Virus record (IMG/VR): IMGVR_UViG_3300017987_000005
Span: 119,649-183,648 of that record
Length of the DNA: 64,000 bases
Strand: one strand, 5' to 3'
Origin: a virus
Below the pieces are notes generated by a model, which did no database searches, was not told the origin of the DNA, and saw only the letters and a list, made by a program, of their open reading frames with translations. Of the stretch, positions 1,210 through 63,036 are shown piece after piece. Both the position numbers and the translations under genes were made by a program. Position 1 is the first letter of the stretch, and each line of letters opens with the position of its first letter.

Positions 1210-4200
1210 TATTTCCAACTCCCAACACCAGGCGGTTTCCTATCACCTTCGGTATGTCTGCGAAGAAGGTCCTCACCCGAATACTGAAGAACAGTTTCAT
1301 ATATCTTACGTCCGTCAAGATTCAAAACAACAGGTATAACTACAGTCGGCATTGTAGAAGCTCCGCCTCCTGAAGCTGCGGCGGCTGCGGCGGCTGCTCC
1401 TCCTCCGCCTCCTCGCCCTACAGACATGTCATTATCAATACCGATACTCGCTACTGCGCTGGAGTCCCCGAGTCCTGATATCGGCGCCACGATATTTCCA
1501 GCAACAATATTCATTGACATATTAGCTGACATATCGCCACCACCTCCGAATATCGAACTGATTATCTTTCCAATCAATCCGAATATCCCGAATATGGATG
1601 TCAAAACTTTCAAAAATACTTTGAACAAATCAGTAACAATCTTCACTCCCTCGATAAGCTCAGGGAATAATGAATTTCCAAATAATAAATCGTATATCCA
1701 CTTAAAAACTTTATACGCTAAGTATAGCGGAGCTAAAAATGGAAAAAACAAGAAGGCAACCTTTTTCAACGCCCAGCTAAGTTTTTCAAAAAGTCCGAGC
1801 AACCACTTAAATCCGGCAACTATCCATCCGAATAATATTTTTCCGAACCACAGTAAGAATTTACCAGCATACCATATAGCAGCTCCTACTATAAACAGTA
1901 TCCCGGCTATAAGCAATATTATCGGAGCAAGCCCACTCGCCCACATAGCGGTAGCAAAATTCCACGTAGCAACTACGGCACTCCATACCATAGGAACGAG
2001 AGCTATCAATCCAGAGATAGCTGCTGCTATCGCTTTTGCCGCTAACCCTATAAGATTAAACTTCAAAATAGCAACAGCAGCTATGAGAGCAACAATCGGT
2101 TTAGCGAGTACTTCGAATGCTTTTATCAACCCCTTTGTCGGCTTCAAAAAATCTTTGGCTGCATCTATCCACTCATTAAATTTATCCACGGCGGGAGATA
2201 CAAAATCTACTAAATCATTCCATAAATCGACAAACGGTGTCATCATATCAATCAGAACATTTATTATCCCCATAATCAATAGATTAAGAAGCTTAATAAG
2301 TATCCTGATAATATATACTGCTGCGACTATCGGGAAAAACAGTGCTCCGAGGAATACTCCGGCAACGATAGCGACAGCCTTAAACACTTGAGCAAGTATT
2401 GATACGAGCGACCTGAACATATGCACTAGTTTCTGAACAGCTAATCCAATGGTGCGCATCAAATCAAAAAACGGCTCCAGTACAACTTTTATCAGTCCCC
2501 ATGCTTTATAAAATACGTACCCCAAGAACGCTACGGCAGCGGCTATCCCTAAAACTATCCAAGTTACAGGATTAGTAAGTAATGCCCACGTAAACTTCAG
2601 TACGGCTGCGGTAGCTCCCCATAAAGCAATAATCATTTTCTTAATAGCTACGCCCGCAGCAAATAACTGTGCTTTTCCAAACGCTATTGTCGCTGCTTCT
2701 CCAGCCACTAACCCCGGTATGTATTTGTTCCATATCAATAAAACGTTATTCCACTGCGCTGCCCACCACGCTTTTGACGCTACGGTATTCATCACTGTAG
2801 CAGTAAACAATCCCCAGTATTTAGCAATCAATGCTTGAGTAGAAAGTATGTGATACAGTAATGGAGTAATAAGAATCCAGAAAGCTAATGCTAACGCTCC
2901 TATGGCAGCTAAAACCCCGCCCTTTCCGAGTACTCTCATTAAAGACTGTGTCCACGATATTACTTGCTTTACAGCTCTAATGACTAGCTTAATAGCTGCA
3001 ACGGCGGCAGTTATTGGGAAGAATATTACGGCAATCGCTTTCTGAAAATCAGTACTGTTCCCACTAACTACGTCGAGAATAGAATTCAATATTTTAATAG
3101 AAGCAATTAAAGCGAACACTACTCCGACTACCGATGCTATCGCAGCCCCCGCAAACCCGAACACCTGAGACAGTTTTGATAAAACTGCTGACCCTATCCT
3201 CCCCTGGGCAATCCAGTTCTGAGTAAAAGTCCCGAGCTTTCCGATATACTTTGTTACAAACGCAGTAACCTTACCCCACTGCTTTAACACTTTATTCCAA
3301 ATACTCTGCCACCATACTACGGACATAATATTTGCTTTTAGTATAATGAGCTGCCCCCACAAATACTTAACTCCCTTTGAAGCTGCCGACCATGCTACTT
3401 TCCCGAAGGCAAGCATCTTTGCTCCAGCCCACTTAAGCAGATTTCCAAGTTCAGTAACAGCCTTCCCCTGCATTACCCATACTTTCCAGGTCATCCTCAG
3501 TTGCTTAGTAAACGCTGCATATACCGTGCCCATCTTCTCAGTAGTACGGACTAACAGTTTCTTAGCTAATGTCAATATTCCCATTTTATTAGCCATCATT
3601 GCAGCAGCCCAGCTTCCGCGATTCACAGCGCTCGCCCACTTAATAAGAAGTACTCTGGAAAGCATAAACAGCGTCAGTAGGGCAGATAACCCCGCCATTA
3701 CTATTGTAATAACAGTTACTAACCCTGCGGTAAGTCCTACGAGCATCCATATGGGACGAGGAATCATAAGAAGTGCGGCAAAAAATGCTATGAAAACATT
3801 TATGACAGCTCTCAGCGGAGGAAGTAATGCGGAACCAACGATAATCGCAAGGTTCTTAATAGACCCTATTAAAATCATAATTTTAGCGTGTACTGACGTA
3901 GCTGTAATTGCATACTGCTCATTAAGTTCGGTCCCCTGGCGAAATGCGTTATTAGCAACGCCGACCTGCTTTTCAATATCGCGAACACGAGCAGTCAAAC
4001 CCATGAATACACGAATAGCACGAGCAGCGTTCAGACCGAGTACCTCAATCGCAGGAGCAACTTCGCTCCTACTCAAGTTACCGAGTCGAGTCAACACTCT
4101 GACAAGAATTTCCATCGGTCGTGTCTGGAGCATTGTCGAATATACTTCCTGAGTTACTCCGATAAAATCTGCAAATGCTTTTTGGCGCTTGGACATCATC

Positions 4201-6500: not shown

Positions 6501-8471
6501 TTAAACGGTCTCAGTGATAGACCCACCACCATCCCACAGACCGATTTTGAATACAACAAACTCGGCGGGTAGCGGCGGGTTAACGCCAATTTCACAGACG
6601 ACTTTCCCCTGGTTGCGTACTTCTTCGGGATTGTTTTCTGCGTCACACTTAACGTAGAAAGCACGACCCATATCATCTGACGGGTAAAGCATACCCTCCT
6701 GCCACAGGCCACGGAGGAATTTTGTCACAACGTTGCGTATCTGTCCCCACAGTTTCGGGTCGCTGTTTTTGAAAACAGCCCACTGCGTTCCTTCAAAGAC
6801 TGTAGCCTTGATGAAATTCAGCAGCCCGCGAACGTTCGTGTAATGACGTCCATCGGTAAGAGAGGTGAGAGTACGCACACCCCAAATACGAATACCGCGA
6901 GTTCCGAAGTCACGGATGCAGTTAATTCCGAGCGGGTTCAGGATGTCCTGCTCACCGTTCGATACATCGTATTCGAGACTCTTAGCGTTCGCAACAACAA
7001 CATTCGCAGGAGCAACAGAAATATTCTGCTGTCCGGCTACACGAGCCCATATTCCCTGGAAAGCTCCGTCCGGAGATATGAGTTTATTTCCGCCGAGACC
7101 ATCATCAATGTTGTACCACGGGTACAGAAGGATAGCATGACTGCTGTCCACATTGACAACCTGGCTCCTCCACTGCTTAATCTGAGTGGGATTATAGCCA
7201 GCCGGTCCAGCATAAATATAAGAAATGGTCCCGCGCTGAATCTCACAATAACGAACACCTTCCAGAATCACAGCTTCCGTCGTGACACCCGGAACTGAAA
7301 GCATGTTCACTTCGCGAACATCTTCCAGAAGACCCATGCCGGTCCGAGGAGCGGTCTGAGTCCCGATGTAGTCATCATTGCTCGGAGTTCCACCGGCATT
7401 TCCGCCAGCCATCGCTACAGCGCTTCCGTCATACGGCGATGCCATATTAAACGGAATGTTATCGCCGACACTCGAACCACCGCCAGTATAACTCAGCTCG
7501 ACATACTGCGAGATATTCTGTGAACCGGTCGTAGCATTCACGATAGTCCCGTAGAATCGAGGACTCTGAGCACTTGCTGAAAGATTGTCAAGAGTATCTT
7601 CAATAACAACGCCGTTATTCGAAACGACAACACTGAACTCAAGTGATGCGACATACGGAGTCATGTCTGCACCCGGAGTTATCGAGGAATCGATTGTCAC
7701 TATATTACCGTTGATAGCGGTAATTCTGCGAGTCCACTGATAGGCGGCGCCACCGACGCTATCCCAGTAAACAATGCTTACAGCATCACCGATTTCCAGC
7801 GCGCCGATGCTCTGAAGCGTAAGCTGCGTAACAGCCACGCCGTTGCTCAGAACACCGTTAACCCGAGTGGAAATCTTATGTGTCGTAGCACATACACCGG
7901 GGTAAGTCTGAGTCGTAACTCCGTTGACGGTGCCTGAGAAAGTAACGGCAGCGTGGTAAATCTTGTTTCCAACAATATCTACAACGTGAACCTCTACCCA
8001 TGCAGCTCCGTCCCAAAAGTTGATGATGTCCCCAATCTCGACATTGGAAGCATCTACGAGGTCAACTTCAGTCCCCGTTGCGGATACGAGGTCATCTGAC
8101 GGGTCAATCAGACACGTATACCGCGTAGTTGTAATTGTTGCTCCGTTCATCTCTGTACCGACGTACCTCGCGTCAGCGTCCATATCATCCAGAGATGCAC
8201 TTGCAGCAAGTGCGCCGGTCCCTACGACGCGAATGACGTAACACCTGGTTCCGCCATTATCAAAAAACGCTTTGACAGCTTCATCGAGATTTCCACCGTC
8301 AGGTCCGAATGTGCTTTCATACTGGGCATAGTTGGTGACCAGTACAGCGACATTCGTAGGACCGCTAGGAGCAGTCCCTATGAAGGAACCGGTTCCCGTT
8401 CCAACTCCGAGGAGAGTCGGACGTCCACCGATTTCTTCAACGTAAACATCCGGATGTAATCTTTGCGCCAT
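6501..8471 (-). CDS. Tail sheath protein
   Basis: The 656-aa protein begins LHPDVYVEEIGGRP, the typical sheath N-terminus (PGVYVEE...), followed by GSFIGTAPSGP and VTNYAQYESTFGP. The C-terminal third has DGRHYTNVRGLLNFIKATV and KFLRGLWQEGML, the conserved sheath core that interlocks subunits through the extended termini. The middle 250 residues are an inserted, Ser/Thr/Val-rich beta region, probably a surface domain. It contracts to drive the tube through the envelope. The gene sits directly upstream of the tube gene. Confidence 0.92.
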   Translation of the reverse strand: MAQRLHPDVYVEEIGGRPTLLGVGTGTGSFIGTAPSGPTNVAVLVTNYAQYESTFGPDGGNLDEAVKAFFDNGGTRCYVIRVVGTGALAASASLDDMDADARYVGTEMNGATITTTRYTCLIDPSDDLVSATGTEVDLVDASNVEIGDIINFWDGAAWVEVHVVDIVGNKIYHAAVTFSGTVNGVTTQTYPGVCATTHKISTRVNGVLSNGVAVTQLTLQSIGALEIGDAVSIVYWDSVGGAAYQWTRRITAINGNIVTIDSSITPGADMTPYVASLEFSVVVSNNGVVIEDTLDNLSASAQSPRFYGTIVNATTGSQNISQYVELSYTGGGSSVGDNIPFNMASPYDGSAVAMAGGNAGGTPSNDDYIGTQTAPRTGMGLLEDVREVNMLSVPGVTTEAVILEGVRYCEIQRGTISYIYAGPAGYNPTQIKQWRSQVVNVDSSHAILLYPWYNIDDGLGGNKLISPDGAFQGIWARVAGQQNISVAPANVVVANAKSLEYDVSNGEQDILNPLGINCIRDFGTRGIRIWGVRTLTSLTDGRHYTNVRGLLNFIKATVFEGTQWAVFKNSDPKLWGQIRNVVTKFLRGLWQEGMLYPSDDMGRAFYVKCDAENNPEEVRNQGKVVCEIGVNPPLPAEFVVFKIGLWDGGGSITETV

Positions 8472-8761
8472 TACTTATCCTCCTTATCTTTAGGTTTACT
8501 ACTTGATTTTTTTGCAGGTTTTTTTGACTCGCCACTCTCTTCTTTCTTATCTTCCTTATCTTCCTTAGCAGCTTTTGCATCCTCAATCGAAATTTCTTTA
8601 CGGTCAAGGGCTGCTACAAGCTGTCTCGATGCAGCGTCATCGTTCTTCAAAGATACGCTTTCACCTGGAGCAAGATGTACGGCTCTGCGTCTACCGTTCT
8701 CGTCGAAAGAGTCTAAGTCATACGCTCTCAAATTTTTTGTGAGATTAGTAACTTGCTTCAT
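8471..8761 (-). CDS. Small sheath-upstream protein with a Lys/Glu-rich tail
   Basis: This 96-aa protein has an N-terminal half with small-barrel character (GRRRAVHLAPGESVSL) and a C-terminal half that is almost entirely charged (Lys, Glu, Asp, Ser). I start it at the ATG 8761 because AAGGAG lies at the right distance; a GTG nine bases upstream is too near. Its stop overlaps the sheath ATG. A second gene with the same plan, an ordered N-terminus plus a lysine/alanine tail, lies at 12039-12407. I do not recognise a function; a head-tail or tail accessory role is possible. Confidence 0.6.
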   Translation of the reverse strand: MKQVTNLTKNLRAYDLDSFDENGRRRAVHLAPGESVSLKNDDAASRQLVAALDRKEISIEDAKAAKEDKEDKKEESGESKKPAKKSSSKPKDKEDK

Positions 8762-10055
8762 ATTGAGCACTCCTTTCTATTACAATTACGTTAATATCAA
8801 TATCGGTAGCAAGCTTAGACTCTTTAACCGCTCCGATACTACGGTACCTCCCGAACCGTAGTGGAACGTCCACGACGGTAAGTTCATCAATAACTCTGGA
8901 AGGTGTCGTGACTTCATCATACCGCAAAGTCCACTTCAATCTTCTTCCAAGCCCTTCAGAATAAACTGAGCGTCGTTCAATGAGCCTACGTATCCCTTCC
9001 TCCATTCTAACAGCCTGCTCTGTACGATGAGCTTGGCATAAGAGGTCGAAACGAAATTCTGCCCAACGCTCCAGGTATGTTCGCGAAGAAAAGTCCCACC
9101 AGTTTATTTCAACTTTATCTTCATAGGGACCCCACTCTTCTTCATTAATAGTTGCTATAACAAGAGCAACTTCATCAGATAACTGGACAATAGGCTTCGT
9201 TTCAACATGAACTGGTGGCCTATGACCAAACTGGAATTCAACATATCCATCCTGCTCTGATGTAAATGTAATGTTTCCGTCAGAACTCCAATCAGAAACG
9301 ACGTTGGTCGTTTTCTGCGGGTCGTCATCTATATTGTATGCTCTGACGTACTCGACAATCGTAGACGCCGGGACCGTATTCCCTTCAGGGTCAGTCCTGG
9401 TCGTATACGGAAGCCTATATGTATCGGCTCTATCTAATTCTTTGACGACACGGTCATCAAAATAATAGTAATTCTGTAGGTGCATAGATATTGAACGAAT
9501 ACTATCATCAAGAAAATTATCCCGGATACTTTCGACAAAATCAATAGCTATCCAGTTAAACTTAGGCTTAGTATCCAAATCAACCGGGTACATCTTAATC
9601 CACATCATTATATTACGCTCGCCGGGCGAAAGACTCTGTATCCCCTGATGGAATTTGTTCTCATTCATCCACTCAGGCTCATCGTAGTCGTCCCCAAGAA
9701 GCATGTGAATCCCAAGTCCTCCAACATAATCTCCGCCGCCACCCCTGGCTCCCCCGATAGTCACCCAACGCTGACCATTAAAATACTGCCAATGATTGCC
9801 TCCATCAGTAGATATCCTAAATCCTAATTTGCAATCACTTGCACTAACAGTTAACCCGAAAAAACTATCGATAAGCGACGCCCGTAATGAATAACTCTTG
9901 AAGTCAGCAGGGTAATACATACCTCCACGCGCGTAGTTTCCGTATACATCCGTCTTACGCAACGATATAAAACGGGATGAAGTATCAAGGTAGGCATCCC
10001 TACTTGACATCTCCCATCCATCAAATCTGTTTGCGCAAAAAACTAGACTAGCCAT
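8745..10055 (-). CDS. Virion protein of unknown function upstream of the sheath
   Basis: This 436-aa protein is rich in aromatic and beta-strand residues. The N-terminal 100 residues (FRISTDGGNHWQYFNG) look like a lectin or discoidin-like jelly-roll fold. The C-terminal half contains the helices RMEEGIRRLIERRS and then a beta segment. It lies between an HK97-gp10-like gene and the sheath gene, where tail-terminator and neck proteins normally sit, so it may be a tail terminator with an added binding domain. That placement is the only functional evidence. Confidence 0.6.
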   Translation of the reverse strand: MASLVFCANRFDGWEMSSRDAYLDTSSRFISLRKTDVYGNYARGGMYYPADFKSYSLRASLIDSFFGLTVSASDCKLGFRISTDGGNHWQYFNGQRWVTIGGARGGGGDYVGGLGIHMLLGDDYDEPEWMNENKFHQGIQSLSPGERNIMMWIKMYPVDLDTKPKFNWIAIDFVESIRDNFLDDSIRSISMHLQNYYYFDDRVVKELDRADTYRLPYTTRTDPEGNTVPASTIVEYVRAYNIDDDPQKTTNVVSDWSSDGNITFTSEQDGYVEFQFGHRPPVHVETKPIVQLSDEVALVIATINEEEWGPYEDKVEINWWDFSSRTYLERWAEFRFDLLCQAHRTEQAVRMEEGIRRLIERRSVYSEGLGRRLKWTLRYDEVTTPSRVIDELTVVDVPLRFGRYRSIGAVKESKLATDIDINVIVIERSAQYEASY

Positions 10056-60630: not shown

Positions 60631-60661
60631 TGGTGTGCTGAGAGAGATTCGAACTCAGTCG
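60631..60661 (-). pseudogene. 3' tRNA fragment overlapping the HNH gene end
   Basis: A 3' tRNA end only: GAG-TTCGAAT-CTC T-arm-like, then CAGCACA and CCA. It overlaps the stop codon of the HNH gene at 60655. No matching 5' half with a good acceptor complement is present. It is probably the remnant of a tRNA gene broken by insertion of the endonuclease gene. Confidence 0.55.
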
Positions 60662-61059
60662 TCCCAATGAATAATCCTGTGACAGTTAGAGCAAACTACA
60701 TCGCACTTAGCTATCTCAGCGTCAATTCTTTCAAACGACCAACATCTCGCAACAGCTAACGACAATTCCGAATCTTTGTCCCCGGACTCGCGATGATGAA
60801 AATCCAAACATCTTGGGTCACTCATCCCGCACACTACACAAGGATGGCTGCTCTTATAATCAAACAAGTACTTCCTACGAATAGCTCTATTATCGCGATT
60901 AGTCTTAACACGCTTAGCTCTATCCCTACGGTAATACTTCTTAGAGTATTCAGCCATACACTCCTTACATCTCGTCTGGAGTCCGTCGGCCTGCTTACTA
61001 TTTTTAGAGAACAAAGATACGTCTTTACGCTTTCCACACTTTCCGCATAACTTATCCAT
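60655..61059 (-). CDS. HNH endonuclease inserted in the tRNA array
   Basis: 134 aa. N-terminal zinc ribbon (LCGKCGKRKDV, CKECMAEYSKKYYRRD) and an HNH core PCVVCGMSDPRCLDFHHRES...CDVVCSNCHRIIHW with the H-N-H residues and zinc cysteines. It has its own promoter and lies between an intact tRNA-Lys(UUU) and a 3' tRNA fragment. Likely a homing endonuclease. Confidence 0.8.
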   Translation of the reverse strand: MDKLCGKCGKRKDVSLFSKNSKQADGLQTRCKECMAEYSKKYYRRDRAKRVKTNRDNRAIRRKYLFDYKSSHPCVVCGMSDPRCLDFHHRESGDKDSELSLAVARCWSFERIDAEIAKCDVVCSNCHRIIHWDD

Positions 61060-61125: not shown

Positions 61126-61202
61126 TGGTGGGACCGGTGGAAGTCGAATCCACAACCCCCGGATTAAAAGTCCGGTGCTCTATCCAGTTGAGCTACGGCC
61201 CC
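61126..61202 (-). tRNA. tRNA-Lys(UUU)
   Basis: Acceptor GGGGCCG/CGGTCCC, loop CTTTTAA in stem CCGGA/TCCGG, CCA encoded. Intact, located between a broken 5' tRNA fragment and the HNH gene. Confidence 0.88.
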
Positions 61203-61208
61203 GTATCA

Positions 61209-61262
61209 AGGCTGCAACTCACACTGAAAAGTGCGGTACTCTATCCGTTGAGTTACCAGCCC
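61209..61262 (-). pseudogene. 5' fragment of a tRNA-Lys-like gene
   Basis: GGGCTGG (acceptor 5' strand), a D-arm (ACTC/GAGT), then CCGCA and CTTTT, a Lys(UUU)-type start of the anticodon loop. After that the sequence no longer pairs; no T-arm or 3' acceptor exists nearby. It is a broken tRNA gene of the same identity as the intact tRNA-Lys(UUU) next to it. Confidence 0.6.
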
Positions 61263-61264
61263 GT

Positions 61265-61608
61265 CTACTTACGTTTTCGCTTTCGTTTGTCCACTATATC
61301 TATTCCTTTATAATCTTCTAAATACCACTTAATAACAGTCATAACTACGTTCCGAAATTCCACTCCCCACACATCGCAAATACTCTCATGCAATCGGGTC
61401 AGTATCGTCTTCGGCTTCCATCCATGCTTCAGCGAATCCTCTACTAAATCAATCCAATCTGGCAACCAGTTGCGTTGATGTAGATTATGGAAAATTACGC
61501 CAAAGGCAATCCGTGCCTATCAAAGAGCTTGAAGACTCCCTTCACAACGAGCTTCCCTTCCGGAGTCTTCCCTGAAAAAGAAAGCTTCAACTTCTTCTTA
61601 CGTCCCAT
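61265..61608 (-). pseudogene. Frameshifted small gene between tRNAs
   Basis: An ATG at 61608 with AAGGAG opens a 37-codon frame (MGRKKKLKLSFSGKTPEGKL, then VFKLFDRHGLPLA) that stops at 61495. The frame at -1 is open past it and continues as FGVIFHNLHQRN, LPDWIDLVEDSLKHGWKP, to a stop at 61265. The two parts read as one protein across GGATTGCCTTTGGCG, but no canonical slippery site is there. It is either a frameshift mutation or a non-canonical programmed shift. Alone, the second part lacks a good start (only TTG at 61465). Confidence 0.55.
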
Positions 61609-61625
61609 GACGTCTCCTTATATAT

Positions 61626-61702
61626 TGGGGTGAGCGACGGGGGTCGAACCCGTACCTTCAGGGCCACAACCTGACATGCAGAGCCGCTACACTACGCCCA
61701 CC
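61626..61702 (-). tRNA. tRNA-His(GUG)
   Basis: Loop TTGTGGC, discriminator C, and the extra G at -1 that pairs with C73 is encoded at 61702. CCA encoded. Confidence 0.88.
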
Positions 61703-61712
61703 GTGTAAATCA

Positions 61713-61754
61713 TGGAGCGGGTATGGAGATTCAAACTCCACCTTCTAGCCTGGG
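61713..61754 (-). tRNA. 3' half of a split tRNA-Gly(CCC)
   Basis: CCCAG, then GCTAG (anticodon stem), variable bases AAGG, T-arm TGGAG/CTCCA with loop TTTGAAT, acceptor TACCCGC, discriminator U and CCA. It matches the 5' half at 62618-62651 base for base (7/7 acceptor and 5/5 anticodon-stem pairs). Joined length is 76 nt. Confidence 0.75.
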
Positions 61755-61759
61755 ATGAA

Positions 61760-62437
61760 TCACATAACCCACTCTTCTTTTTCAAATCCTACAAACTCCT
61801 GAATAGCGCCATATAATTTTTGAATAACTTCCGTACAACAAACTGAAACATTACACAATCCATAAACATTTGATTTTCTTTTATGCTTAGAACTACTCGG
61901 ATATCTATCAACTTGCGGCTTCGTAAAATTATCAATAGATATACCTAAAAGCTCTGACCAATATTGTTCAATGTCACTGACAGTCAGCCCCTTATCAGTA
62001 TAACAAACAACATATGCTCGCATCTTATCACTAGAAACATTAAAGAACTTACGCAAAAACTTAACATAAAATAACATCATATTCTCGTCCATATTTGAAA
62101 ACTTAGCTTGGTTTCGCAACGTCTTACTTCCTTCTGCCCAATATAACATGCACCCTGCTATGAATTCAGGGTCTCGTTCCCGAGCAAGCTCTCTTCCATC
62201 ATTTTGCCACTGCTCTCTAAGCTTACGATAATATTTTTTCCTACGCTGCCCTTCAGCATATGGACCTTTTCTCGAATTATCGTAGATAATTTTCTCCTGC
62301 TCAGCAGTAAGCTGTATATCACGAACCCACACACTAACCGTCCCTTTGCTTACGCCAAGCTTATCAGCAATAACTGATAAAGGAAGTCCATCCTCCTTGC
62401 GCATCCTACGGGCTTCTTTACGCTCTTTAGCTTTCAT
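61760..62437 (-). CDS. HTH protein with LAGLIDADG-like motif, inside a split tRNA-Gly
   Basis: 225 aa. N-terminal HTH (SVIADKLGVSKGTVSVWVRD), a basic linker, then FIAGCMLYWAEGSKT, resembling a single LAGLIDADG-type helix, and a C-terminal half with VYGLCNVSVCCTEVIQ. It has its own promoter at 62478-62505 and sits within the intervening DNA of a split tRNA-Gly. It may be a homing endonuclease or a mobility protein; nuclease activity is inference. Confidence 0.6.
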   Translation of the reverse strand: MKAKERKEARRMRKEDGLPLSVIADKLGVSKGTVSVWVRDIQLTAEQEKIIYDNSRKGPYAEGQRRKKYYRKLREQWQNDGRELARERDPEFIAGCMLYWAEGSKTLRNQAKFSNMDENMMLFYVKFLRKFFNVSSDKMRAYVVCYTDKGLTVSDIEQYWSELLGISIDNFTKPQVDRYPSSSKHKRKSNVYGLCNVSVCCTEVIQKLYGAIQEFVGFEKEEWVM

Positions 62438-62452
62438 AATAACTCCTTAAAT

Positions 62453-62495
62453 AGAACTCACGTATATATACATATATATAGTAGACATAAGTTCT
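62453..62495. repeat. Inverted repeat around the HTH gene promoter
   Basis: AGAACT (62453-62458) and AGTTCT (62490-62495) flank an AT-rich stretch with the -10 box. A possible autoregulation site for the HTH protein. Confidence 0.4.
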
Positions 62496-62505
62496 AAAAT
62501 GTCAA
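62478..62505 (-). promoter_or_regulatory. Promoter of the HTH gene, TTGACA-16-TACTAT
   Basis: TTGACA at 62505-62500 and TACTAT at 62483-62478 on the minus strand, same architecture as the HNH gene promoter at 61087-61114. Confidence 0.65.
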
Positions 62506-62522
62506 CTAAAAAGCGAAAAAAG

Positions 62523-62596
62523 AGCGAGAGGCGGGCCTCGAACCCGCAACCTTTTGCCTGGGAAGCAAATGCTCTGCCTATTTGAGCTACTCCCGC
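62523..62596 (-). tRNA. tRNA-Gly(CCC), intact copy inside the split gene
   Basis: Acceptor GCGGGAG/CTCTCGC, loop TTCCCAG in stem TTTGC/GCAAA, discriminator U. CCA is not encoded (CT follows). Reads GGG. It lies within the 863-bp insert that splits another tRNA-Gly(CCC). Confidence 0.85.
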
Positions 62597-62617
62597 ATTA
62601 TATCAAAAGTGTCAATG

Positions 62618-62651
62618 AAGCTAGCGTGCTAATCGCTGACACTATACCCGC
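62618..62651 (-). tRNA. 5' half of a split tRNA-Gly(CCC)
   Basis: GCGGGTA, TA, D-arm GTGT/GCAC, then CTAGC and TT: exactly positions 1-33 of a tRNA. The remaining 42 nt of the same tRNA lie at 61713-61754. The break is between U33 and the first anticodon base. Confidence 0.75.
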
Positions 62652-62652
62652 A

Positions 62653-62728
62653 TGGAGTGAGCGACGGGGGTCGAACCCGCGACCATCAGATTGGAAATCT
62701 GAGACTCTACCAACTGAGTTACGCTCAC
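62653..62728 (-). tRNA. tRNA-Gly(UCC)
   Basis: Acceptor GTGAGCG/CGCTCAC, loop TTTCCAA in stem CAGA/TCTG, discriminator U, CCA encoded. Confidence 0.87.
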
Positions 62729-62740
62729 ATTCAAATCAAT

Positions 62741-62753
62741 TTTCAAAAGAACA
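62741..62753 (-). promoter_or_regulatory. boxA-like element, one extra T
   Basis: TGTTCTTTTGAAA on the minus strand, between tRNA-Gly(UCC) and tRNA-Thr(GGU). Confidence 0.45.
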
Positions 62754-62756
62754 ATA

Positions 62757-62832
62757 TGGAGCTGACGGCGGGAATCGAACCCGCGACCTCATCCTTACCA
62801 AGGATGTGCTCTACCGGCTGAGCTACGTCAGC
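62757..62832 (-). tRNA. tRNA-Thr(GGU)
   Basis: Acceptor GCTGACG/CGTCAGC, loop TTGGTAA, discriminator U, CCA encoded. Confidence 0.87.
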
Positions 62833-62839
62833 CTATTAA

Positions 62840-63036
62840 AATCCAGTTCCGTAAGCGGGATTCTGTTCTATCCTATCATTTATCTTTGCCACTACCATTC
62901 CTCATCGGGCTGCTCACCCCCTCGGATAATTCGTGTTGCTCCCTCGGTGGTGCAATCGAGTGCAAACTCTCCCACCTTAAGCAGCGGAGTCCCGACTTTC
63001 CTCAGACTTACGTCCGCGATAGGTCGAACTGGATAT
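62840..63036 (-). ncRNA. rnpB: RNase P RNA, miniature (rnpB)
   Basis: About 197 nt. P1 is a perfect 9-bp helix (ATCCAGTTC at 63034-63026, GAACTGGAT at 62849-62841). Downstream of its 5' strand lies GAGGAAAGTC (63003-62994), the conserved region I of bacterial RNase P RNA, and near the 3' end ACAGAATCCCGCTTA (62866-62852) is conserved region V; these form the catalytic P4 pairing. It lies between two tRNA-Thr genes. At half the usual length, several helices of the specificity domain must be missing. It would trim 5' leaders of the tRNA array. Confidence 0.82.

Follow-up and report, generated by a model that had tools for sequence, protein, structure and literature searches.

A phage tRNA-Gly(CCC) gene interrupted by an insert that carries an intact tRNA-Gly(CCC) and a putative homing endonuclease gene

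SegB of phages T4/T6 is a free-standing GIY-YIG homing endonuclease encoded in the tRNA region, at an inserted tRNA-Arg/tRNA-Ile (PMC2988022). It resembles the case reported here in being a phage nuclease gene among tRNA genes, whose product cuts inside tRNA genes (PMC13096335) and favours the inheritance of its own tRNA region. SegB, however, belongs to another nuclease family, since the open reading frame (ORF) described below has no match to a GIY-YIG domain in Pfam or PHROGs, and neither the splitting of a tRNA gene nor a replacement copy has been described for SegB. A second likeness is to integrative elements whose attachment sites are tRNA genes; these also insert into a tRNA gene and supply a tRNA or part of one. 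In contrast to these, the present 863-bp insert has no integrase, brings a whole tRNA and leaves both halves of its victim in place. The LAGLIDADG enzyme I-DmoI is matched by a profile of the ORF family across its catalytic helix and the strands that follow, but our ORF lies outside any intron, has an N-terminal helix-turn-helix (HTH) and contains one motif only, in a fold that Foldseek did not confirm. The transcription factor WhiA likewise combines an HTH with a homing-endonuclease domain; the ORF has no WhiA match in Pfam, however, and its family is tRNA-linked and looks mobile, whereas WhiA is, to our knowledge, not linked to tRNA genes. In the literature outside most subscription journals we found no description of the ORF family or of replacement-tRNA insertions, and its novelty is thus provisional.

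The window, that is the whole stretch of DNA analysed, comprises the final 64 kb of a phage record that is 183,648 bp long. The ends of the record overlap by 123 bp, so that the phage genome looks complete and circularly permuted, and a single array of some 45 minus-strand tRNA genes spans the genome end and start. One tRNA-Gly(CCC) gene of this array is interrupted by an insert that is probably a cassette, composed of a homing endonuclease and a replacement tRNA, which landed in a phage tRNA gene. The features of the locus are as follows.

62653..62728, minus strand: intact tRNA-Gly(TCC) flanking the locus (ARAGORN), 1 nt before the 5' part
62618..62651, minus strand: 5' part (bases 1-33) of the interrupted tRNA-Gly(CCC), with 7/7 and 5/5 pairs to the 3' part
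61755..62617, minus strand: 863-bp insert (from the sequence; borders ambiguous by one base either way)
62522..62596, minus strand: carried tRNA-Gly(CCC), intact, no encoded CCA (ARAGORN; Rfam RF00005, 59.5 bits)
62478..62505, minus strand: sigma-70-type promoter-like site TTGACA-16-TACTAT (site count at chance level)
62454..62494, minus strand: inverted repeat GAAC..GTTC with starts 37 nt apart, in the ORF promoter (weak form of the family repeat)
61760..62437, minus strand: 225-aa ORF, N-terminal HTH and C-terminal domain with a LAGLIDADG-like motif (HTH_23; I-DmoI profile match; tRNA-linked family)
61713..61754, minus strand: 3' part (bases 34-76, with CCA) of the interrupted tRNA-Gly(CCC), pairing with the 5' part
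61626..61701, minus strand: intact tRNA-His(GTG) flanking the locus (ARAGORN), 11 nt after the 3' part

Read along the minus strand, the 5' part is followed after 21 nt by the carried tRNA-Gly(CCC), which is separated by 84 nt from the ORF, and the ORF by 5 nt from the 3' part. The tight spacing to both neighbours fits the interrupted tRNA as an original member of the array.

An earlier note on this DNA had claimed that the two parts make up one tRNA, and both are indeed found on the minus strand at 62651-62618 and 61754-61713. The joined 76 nt, GCGGGTATAGTGTCAGCGATTAGCACGCTAGCTTCCCAGGCTAGAAGGTGGAGTTTGAATCTCCATACCCGCTCCA, are called by ARAGORN as tRNA-Gly(CCC), with 7/7 acceptor, 5/5 anticodon-stem and 5/5 T-stem pairs followed by TCCA. 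When the 64 kb were searched exhaustively on both strands for parts separated by 60-3000 bp whose acceptor and anticodon stems are entirely Watson-Crick, this was the sole split tRNA of the window, while six shuffled windows gave 0 pairs; around 142 homologues of the ORF, the phage pair was again the only one of its kind. The same note had described the joined tRNA as perfect, which holds for the stems but not for the loops, the D loop being one base too long with A in place of G19, and the T loop having U56, in contrast to the C present in all other array tRNAs of which the T loop was read. The changes at 19 and 56 may be old rather than decay, since the two bases could pair with each other (A-U, tertiary) across the parts. 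The break does fall in the anticodon loop; its placement exactly at U33, as had been proposed, is not unique, since one-base repeats at the junctions allow it to be set at 32/33, 33/34 or 34/35. A TTCAT repeat overlaps both insert junctions.

The only match to the joined tRNA, extending over its full length, is a tRNA-Gly without interruption from Xanthomonas phage X1 (74% identity, E=0.05), whose anticodon is GCC. Exact and degenerate searches of viral contigs for the empty site, also by way of the neighbouring tRNA-His, found no relative without the insert, and two near-identical phage contigs (capsid protein 100%) do not include the tRNA region.

The 863-bp insert, the intact tRNA-Gly(CCC) without CCA and the ORF, all described in the earlier note, are present, the tRNA at 62596-62522 and the ORF at 62437-61760. 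CCA is encoded by 39 of the 44 array tRNAs called, among them the split copy but not the carried one. In a gapped alignment the carried and split copies share about 70% identity, and the carried copy is of a lineage other than that of the split copy. It has canonical D and T loops and is the only complete Gly(CCC) of the phage. Pfam and PHROGs gave no integrase match for the sole long ORF of the insert.

Library searches with the ORF protein as a single sequence gave nothing beyond its N-terminal HTH (HTH_23). A LAGLIDADG-like helix, suggested previously, was borne out at the profile level, where 38 homologues matched I-DmoI (E=6e-4) across the LAGLIDADG helix and the following strands (LYwaEG to LYVAEG), the motif in the ORF being IAGCMLYWAEG. 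Residue E102, aligned to the I-DmoI glutamate that we take to be the catalytic E117, is E in 37 of the 38 homologues and D in the remaining one, and G103, N115, W160 and G193 are invariant in this alignment. Foldseek gave the helix no support: the AlphaFold models are confident, but there was no LAGLIDADG structure among the PDB matches listed, and the fold thus stands unconfirmed. We regard the 225-aa protein as a putative tRNA-targeting homing endonuclease.

The TTGACA promoter proposed upstream of the ORF exists as a site (62505-62478), although sites of this kind occur in the window at the frequency expected by chance (3 found, 2.7 expected). Family promoters contain a GAACC..GGTTC inverted repeat, the two arms mostly starting 36-39 nt from each other (23 of 136, with 0.75 expected). 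The window repeat, GAACT..AGTTC, differs from it by two mismatches. The T-loop consensus of tRNAs begins with GGTTC(G). Within tRNA genes, the site cut by T4/T6 SegB is RAWTSGAAC (PMC13096335), which in our own reading is the T-arm on the other strand, and I-TevI represses itself via an operator that mimics its own homing site (PMC2988022). By analogy, our guess is that the ORF family may repress itself in the same way, through a target-mimicking operator.

Single-protein searches with the ORF in viral contigs, phages and plasmids found no homologues. Search patterns for distant homologues were chosen from an alignment of the window protein with a consensus written by hand, which served for pattern choice only; every homologue was confirmed by tblastn against the window protein, and all later alignments contain real sequences only. 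Homologues were thereby found in phages, Chloroflexi, Actinobacteria and Patescibacteria, the last with a match in 89 of 287 genomes and up to 9 copies in one genome. Most bacterial members lie close to a tRNA gene, with 101 of 117 having one within about 130 bp and 96 of 117 having it on the same strand. Directly upstream of a same-strand tRNA stand 79 of the 117, compared with 17 of 220 other ORFs (at least 130 aa) at the same loci. Some 30 family members end on a stop codon within the tRNA, usually at U8-A9-G10 or at 13-15; in the patescibacterial examples L115, L142, L162 and L192 the ORF has no stop of its own and ends on the UAG of bases 8-10 of the downstream tRNA.

The family tree follows the isoacceptor of the adjacent tRNA, which changes 32 times on the tree as against at least 72 times under label shuffles, and groups were seen for Ile(TAT), Gly(GCC), Trp(CCA), Lys(CTT), Gln(TTG), Ala(GGC), Met, Gly(TCC) and others. 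In the patescibacterial clades flanking proteins are rarely common to two loci (for Ile(TAT), 3 and 2 of 66 locus pairs), so it is the tRNA that the ORF tracks, rather than the surrounding genes. An exception is the actinobacterial Gly(TCC) clade, with flanks common in 6 and 7 of 10 pairs; it may be vertically inherited, and the isoacceptor sorting of the family could be partly due to vertical inheritance. The patchy, tRNA-linked distribution offers no more than indirect support for site-specific cutting and homing.

When the far side of every ORF was scanned in general for tRNA fragments, 5' or 3', partial second copies of the adjacent tRNA turned up at L016 and L036 (3' part after the ORF) and at L034 and L125 (5' part before the ORF). 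As convincing pieces occur at just these four other loci, broken targets are the exception; two clean halves were seen in no other family member, and most members adjoin an intact tRNA without a remnant. The order of the insert, tRNA-Gly and then ORF, is shared with the actinobacterial loci L018, L020, L021, L026, L027, L029 and L040. The nearest tree neighbour of the window ORF is a phage protein, L045, with a support of only 80. At L051, an odd tRNA-Cys-like sequence directly 3' of the ORF (3670-3750, plus strand), missed by ARAGORN, was read by eye.

A second case lies in the same array, outside the window, at L199 885-227 (minus strand; G000:C1), where a broken tRNA-Cys(GCA), an HNH ORF and an intact tRNA-Cys(GCA) stand together.

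L199 885-846, minus strand: 5' part of tRNA-Cys(GCA), pairing 7/7 with the remnant at 251-227
L199, minus strand: HNH endonuclease ORF, following the 5' part and running into the intact tRNA-Cys (phrog_2255, E=3e-33)
L199 330-254, minus strand: intact tRNA-Cys(GCA)
L199 251-227, minus strand: T-arm and acceptor-strand remnant, two nt after the intact tRNA-Cys, with 7/7 pairs to the first part

This set is of the same design as the tRNA-Gly insert, with an unrelated nuclease, although it is less clean, positions ~41-48 being absent.

Taken together, the isoacceptor clades of the tRNA-linked family, the partial tRNA copies elsewhere and the tRNA-Cys/HNH parallel uphold the earlier suggestion of an element that breaks a tRNA gene and brings a replacement of the same identity. 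The insert would be a compact mobile cassette, made up of a putative HTH-LAGLIDADG homing endonuclease gene and a complete tRNA-Gly(CCC), that entered the phage's own tRNA-Gly(CCC) at the anticodon loop. The cut made by the ORF product in tRNA-Gly genes would lie close to the middle of the anticodon arm, which is naturally near-palindromic and would suit a homodimeric nuclease, and the break would be repaired by copying from a cassette-bearing donor. With base 35 as its centre, the anticodon arm forms an inverted repeat, and the overhangs left by LAGLIDADG enzymes are 4 bases long; a cut at this place would agree with an insertion at 33/34. The resident tRNA, now in two pieces, is probably dead, and we propose that the carried tRNA replaces it, so that the insertion is tolerated. 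Cleavage, homing and replacement in vivo are all predictions from the sequence.

It could instead be envisaged that the ORF is a tRNA-linked regulator in which, as in WhiA, an HTH is combined with a domesticated LAGLIDADG-like domain, and that ordinary recombination of a tRNA-plus-regulator unit broke the tRNA. The strong HTH, the operator-like repeats in family promoters and the negative Foldseek result for LAGLIDADG, with nuclease catalysis only predicted, speak for such a regulator, but the conserved acidic LAGLIDADG-type residue, the patchy occurrence of the family, which reaches 9 copies in a single genome, the partial tRNA copies at several loci and the HNH/tRNA-Cys parallel are set against it, and we consider it unlikely. 

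The interrupted tRNA might also still be in use, in one of two ways. Its parts could be transcribed, trimmed and joined to a working tRNA, for example by the RtcB ligase that the phage encodes, and the intact stems of the joined tRNA and the possible compensated A19-U56 pair across the parts would agree with this. However, the D loop has an extra base, the parts bear long extensions, a second intact Gly(CCC) makes the split copy unnecessary and we know of no bacterial splicing endonuclease for such joining, all of which render it very improbable. The insert could otherwise be an intron (group I, group II or protein-spliced) removed from the tRNA transcript, an alternative raised in the earlier note, and an anticodon-loop site together with a homing-endonuclease-like ORF is typical of tRNA introns. 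Splicing of the insert is nonetheless unlikely, as no positive evidence for it emerged: there was no match to an Rfam intron family at E<=5 in 61200-62760, the internal intact tRNA would itself be excised by RNase P and 3' processing, and the functional-looking second copy makes splicing unnecessary. We give an intron hardly any credence.

Returning to the cassette and its relatives, it is quite possible, though slightly less likely than not, that they form a widespread family of isoacceptor-specific homing elements of tRNA genes, apparently undescribed so far, with members in Patescibacteria, Chloroflexi, Actinobacteria and phages. Each HTH-LAGLIDADG clade would target one isoacceptor and deliver a replacement tRNA or part of one, the phage case retaining both victim halves, and the protein may recognise the T-arm and repress itself via T-arm-like operators. 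If this is true, tRNA genes are homing sites for a whole endonuclease family, and an element that replaces its victim with a carried tRNA can survive in an important gene without an intron or intein. It would help to account for the turnover of tRNA arrays in phages and small bacterial genomes, and for the broken tRNAs and nuclease genes found among such arrays; it would also make testable predictions as to which tRNA each protein cuts, where it cuts and whether the carried tRNA resists.

A miniature class A bacterial RNase P RNA of about 200 nt lies within the tRNA array at 62836-63035 (minus strand) of the window (RF00010, 61 bits, E=1.6e-18, which is below the gathering score of 100). On the same side of the array, outside the window, the segments G000:C1:1000-1900, 2023-3535 and 7849-8931 (L199, L201-L204) contain between them several YrlA Y RNA-like RNAs (best E=3e-7), a TROVE/Ro60 protein and RtcB (E=3.8e-86). 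The RNAs at 1000-1900 had been considered as permuted tRNAs before this was rejected; YrlA matches are present in a second phage too (L044). Salmonella has an Rsr-Yrl-RtcB RNA repair module, and the phage set looks like a version of it.

Within the window, a tRNA-like gene at 60276-60066 (minus strand) has a perfect acceptor stem (GAGCATG/CATGCTC), a D arm, an ATTTA/TAAAT stem and a T arm, with about 110-130 nt extra in the anticodon loop, in which neither an Rfam match nor a long ORF was found. A pseudo-tRNA-Lys, seemingly without a T arm, lies at 61262-61210 (minus strand) and is directly followed by an intact tRNA-Lys(TTT), and an HNH ORF at 60655-61059 (minus strand; phrog_2255, E=6e-34) stands between this tRNA-Lys(TTT) and tRNA-Lys(CTT).
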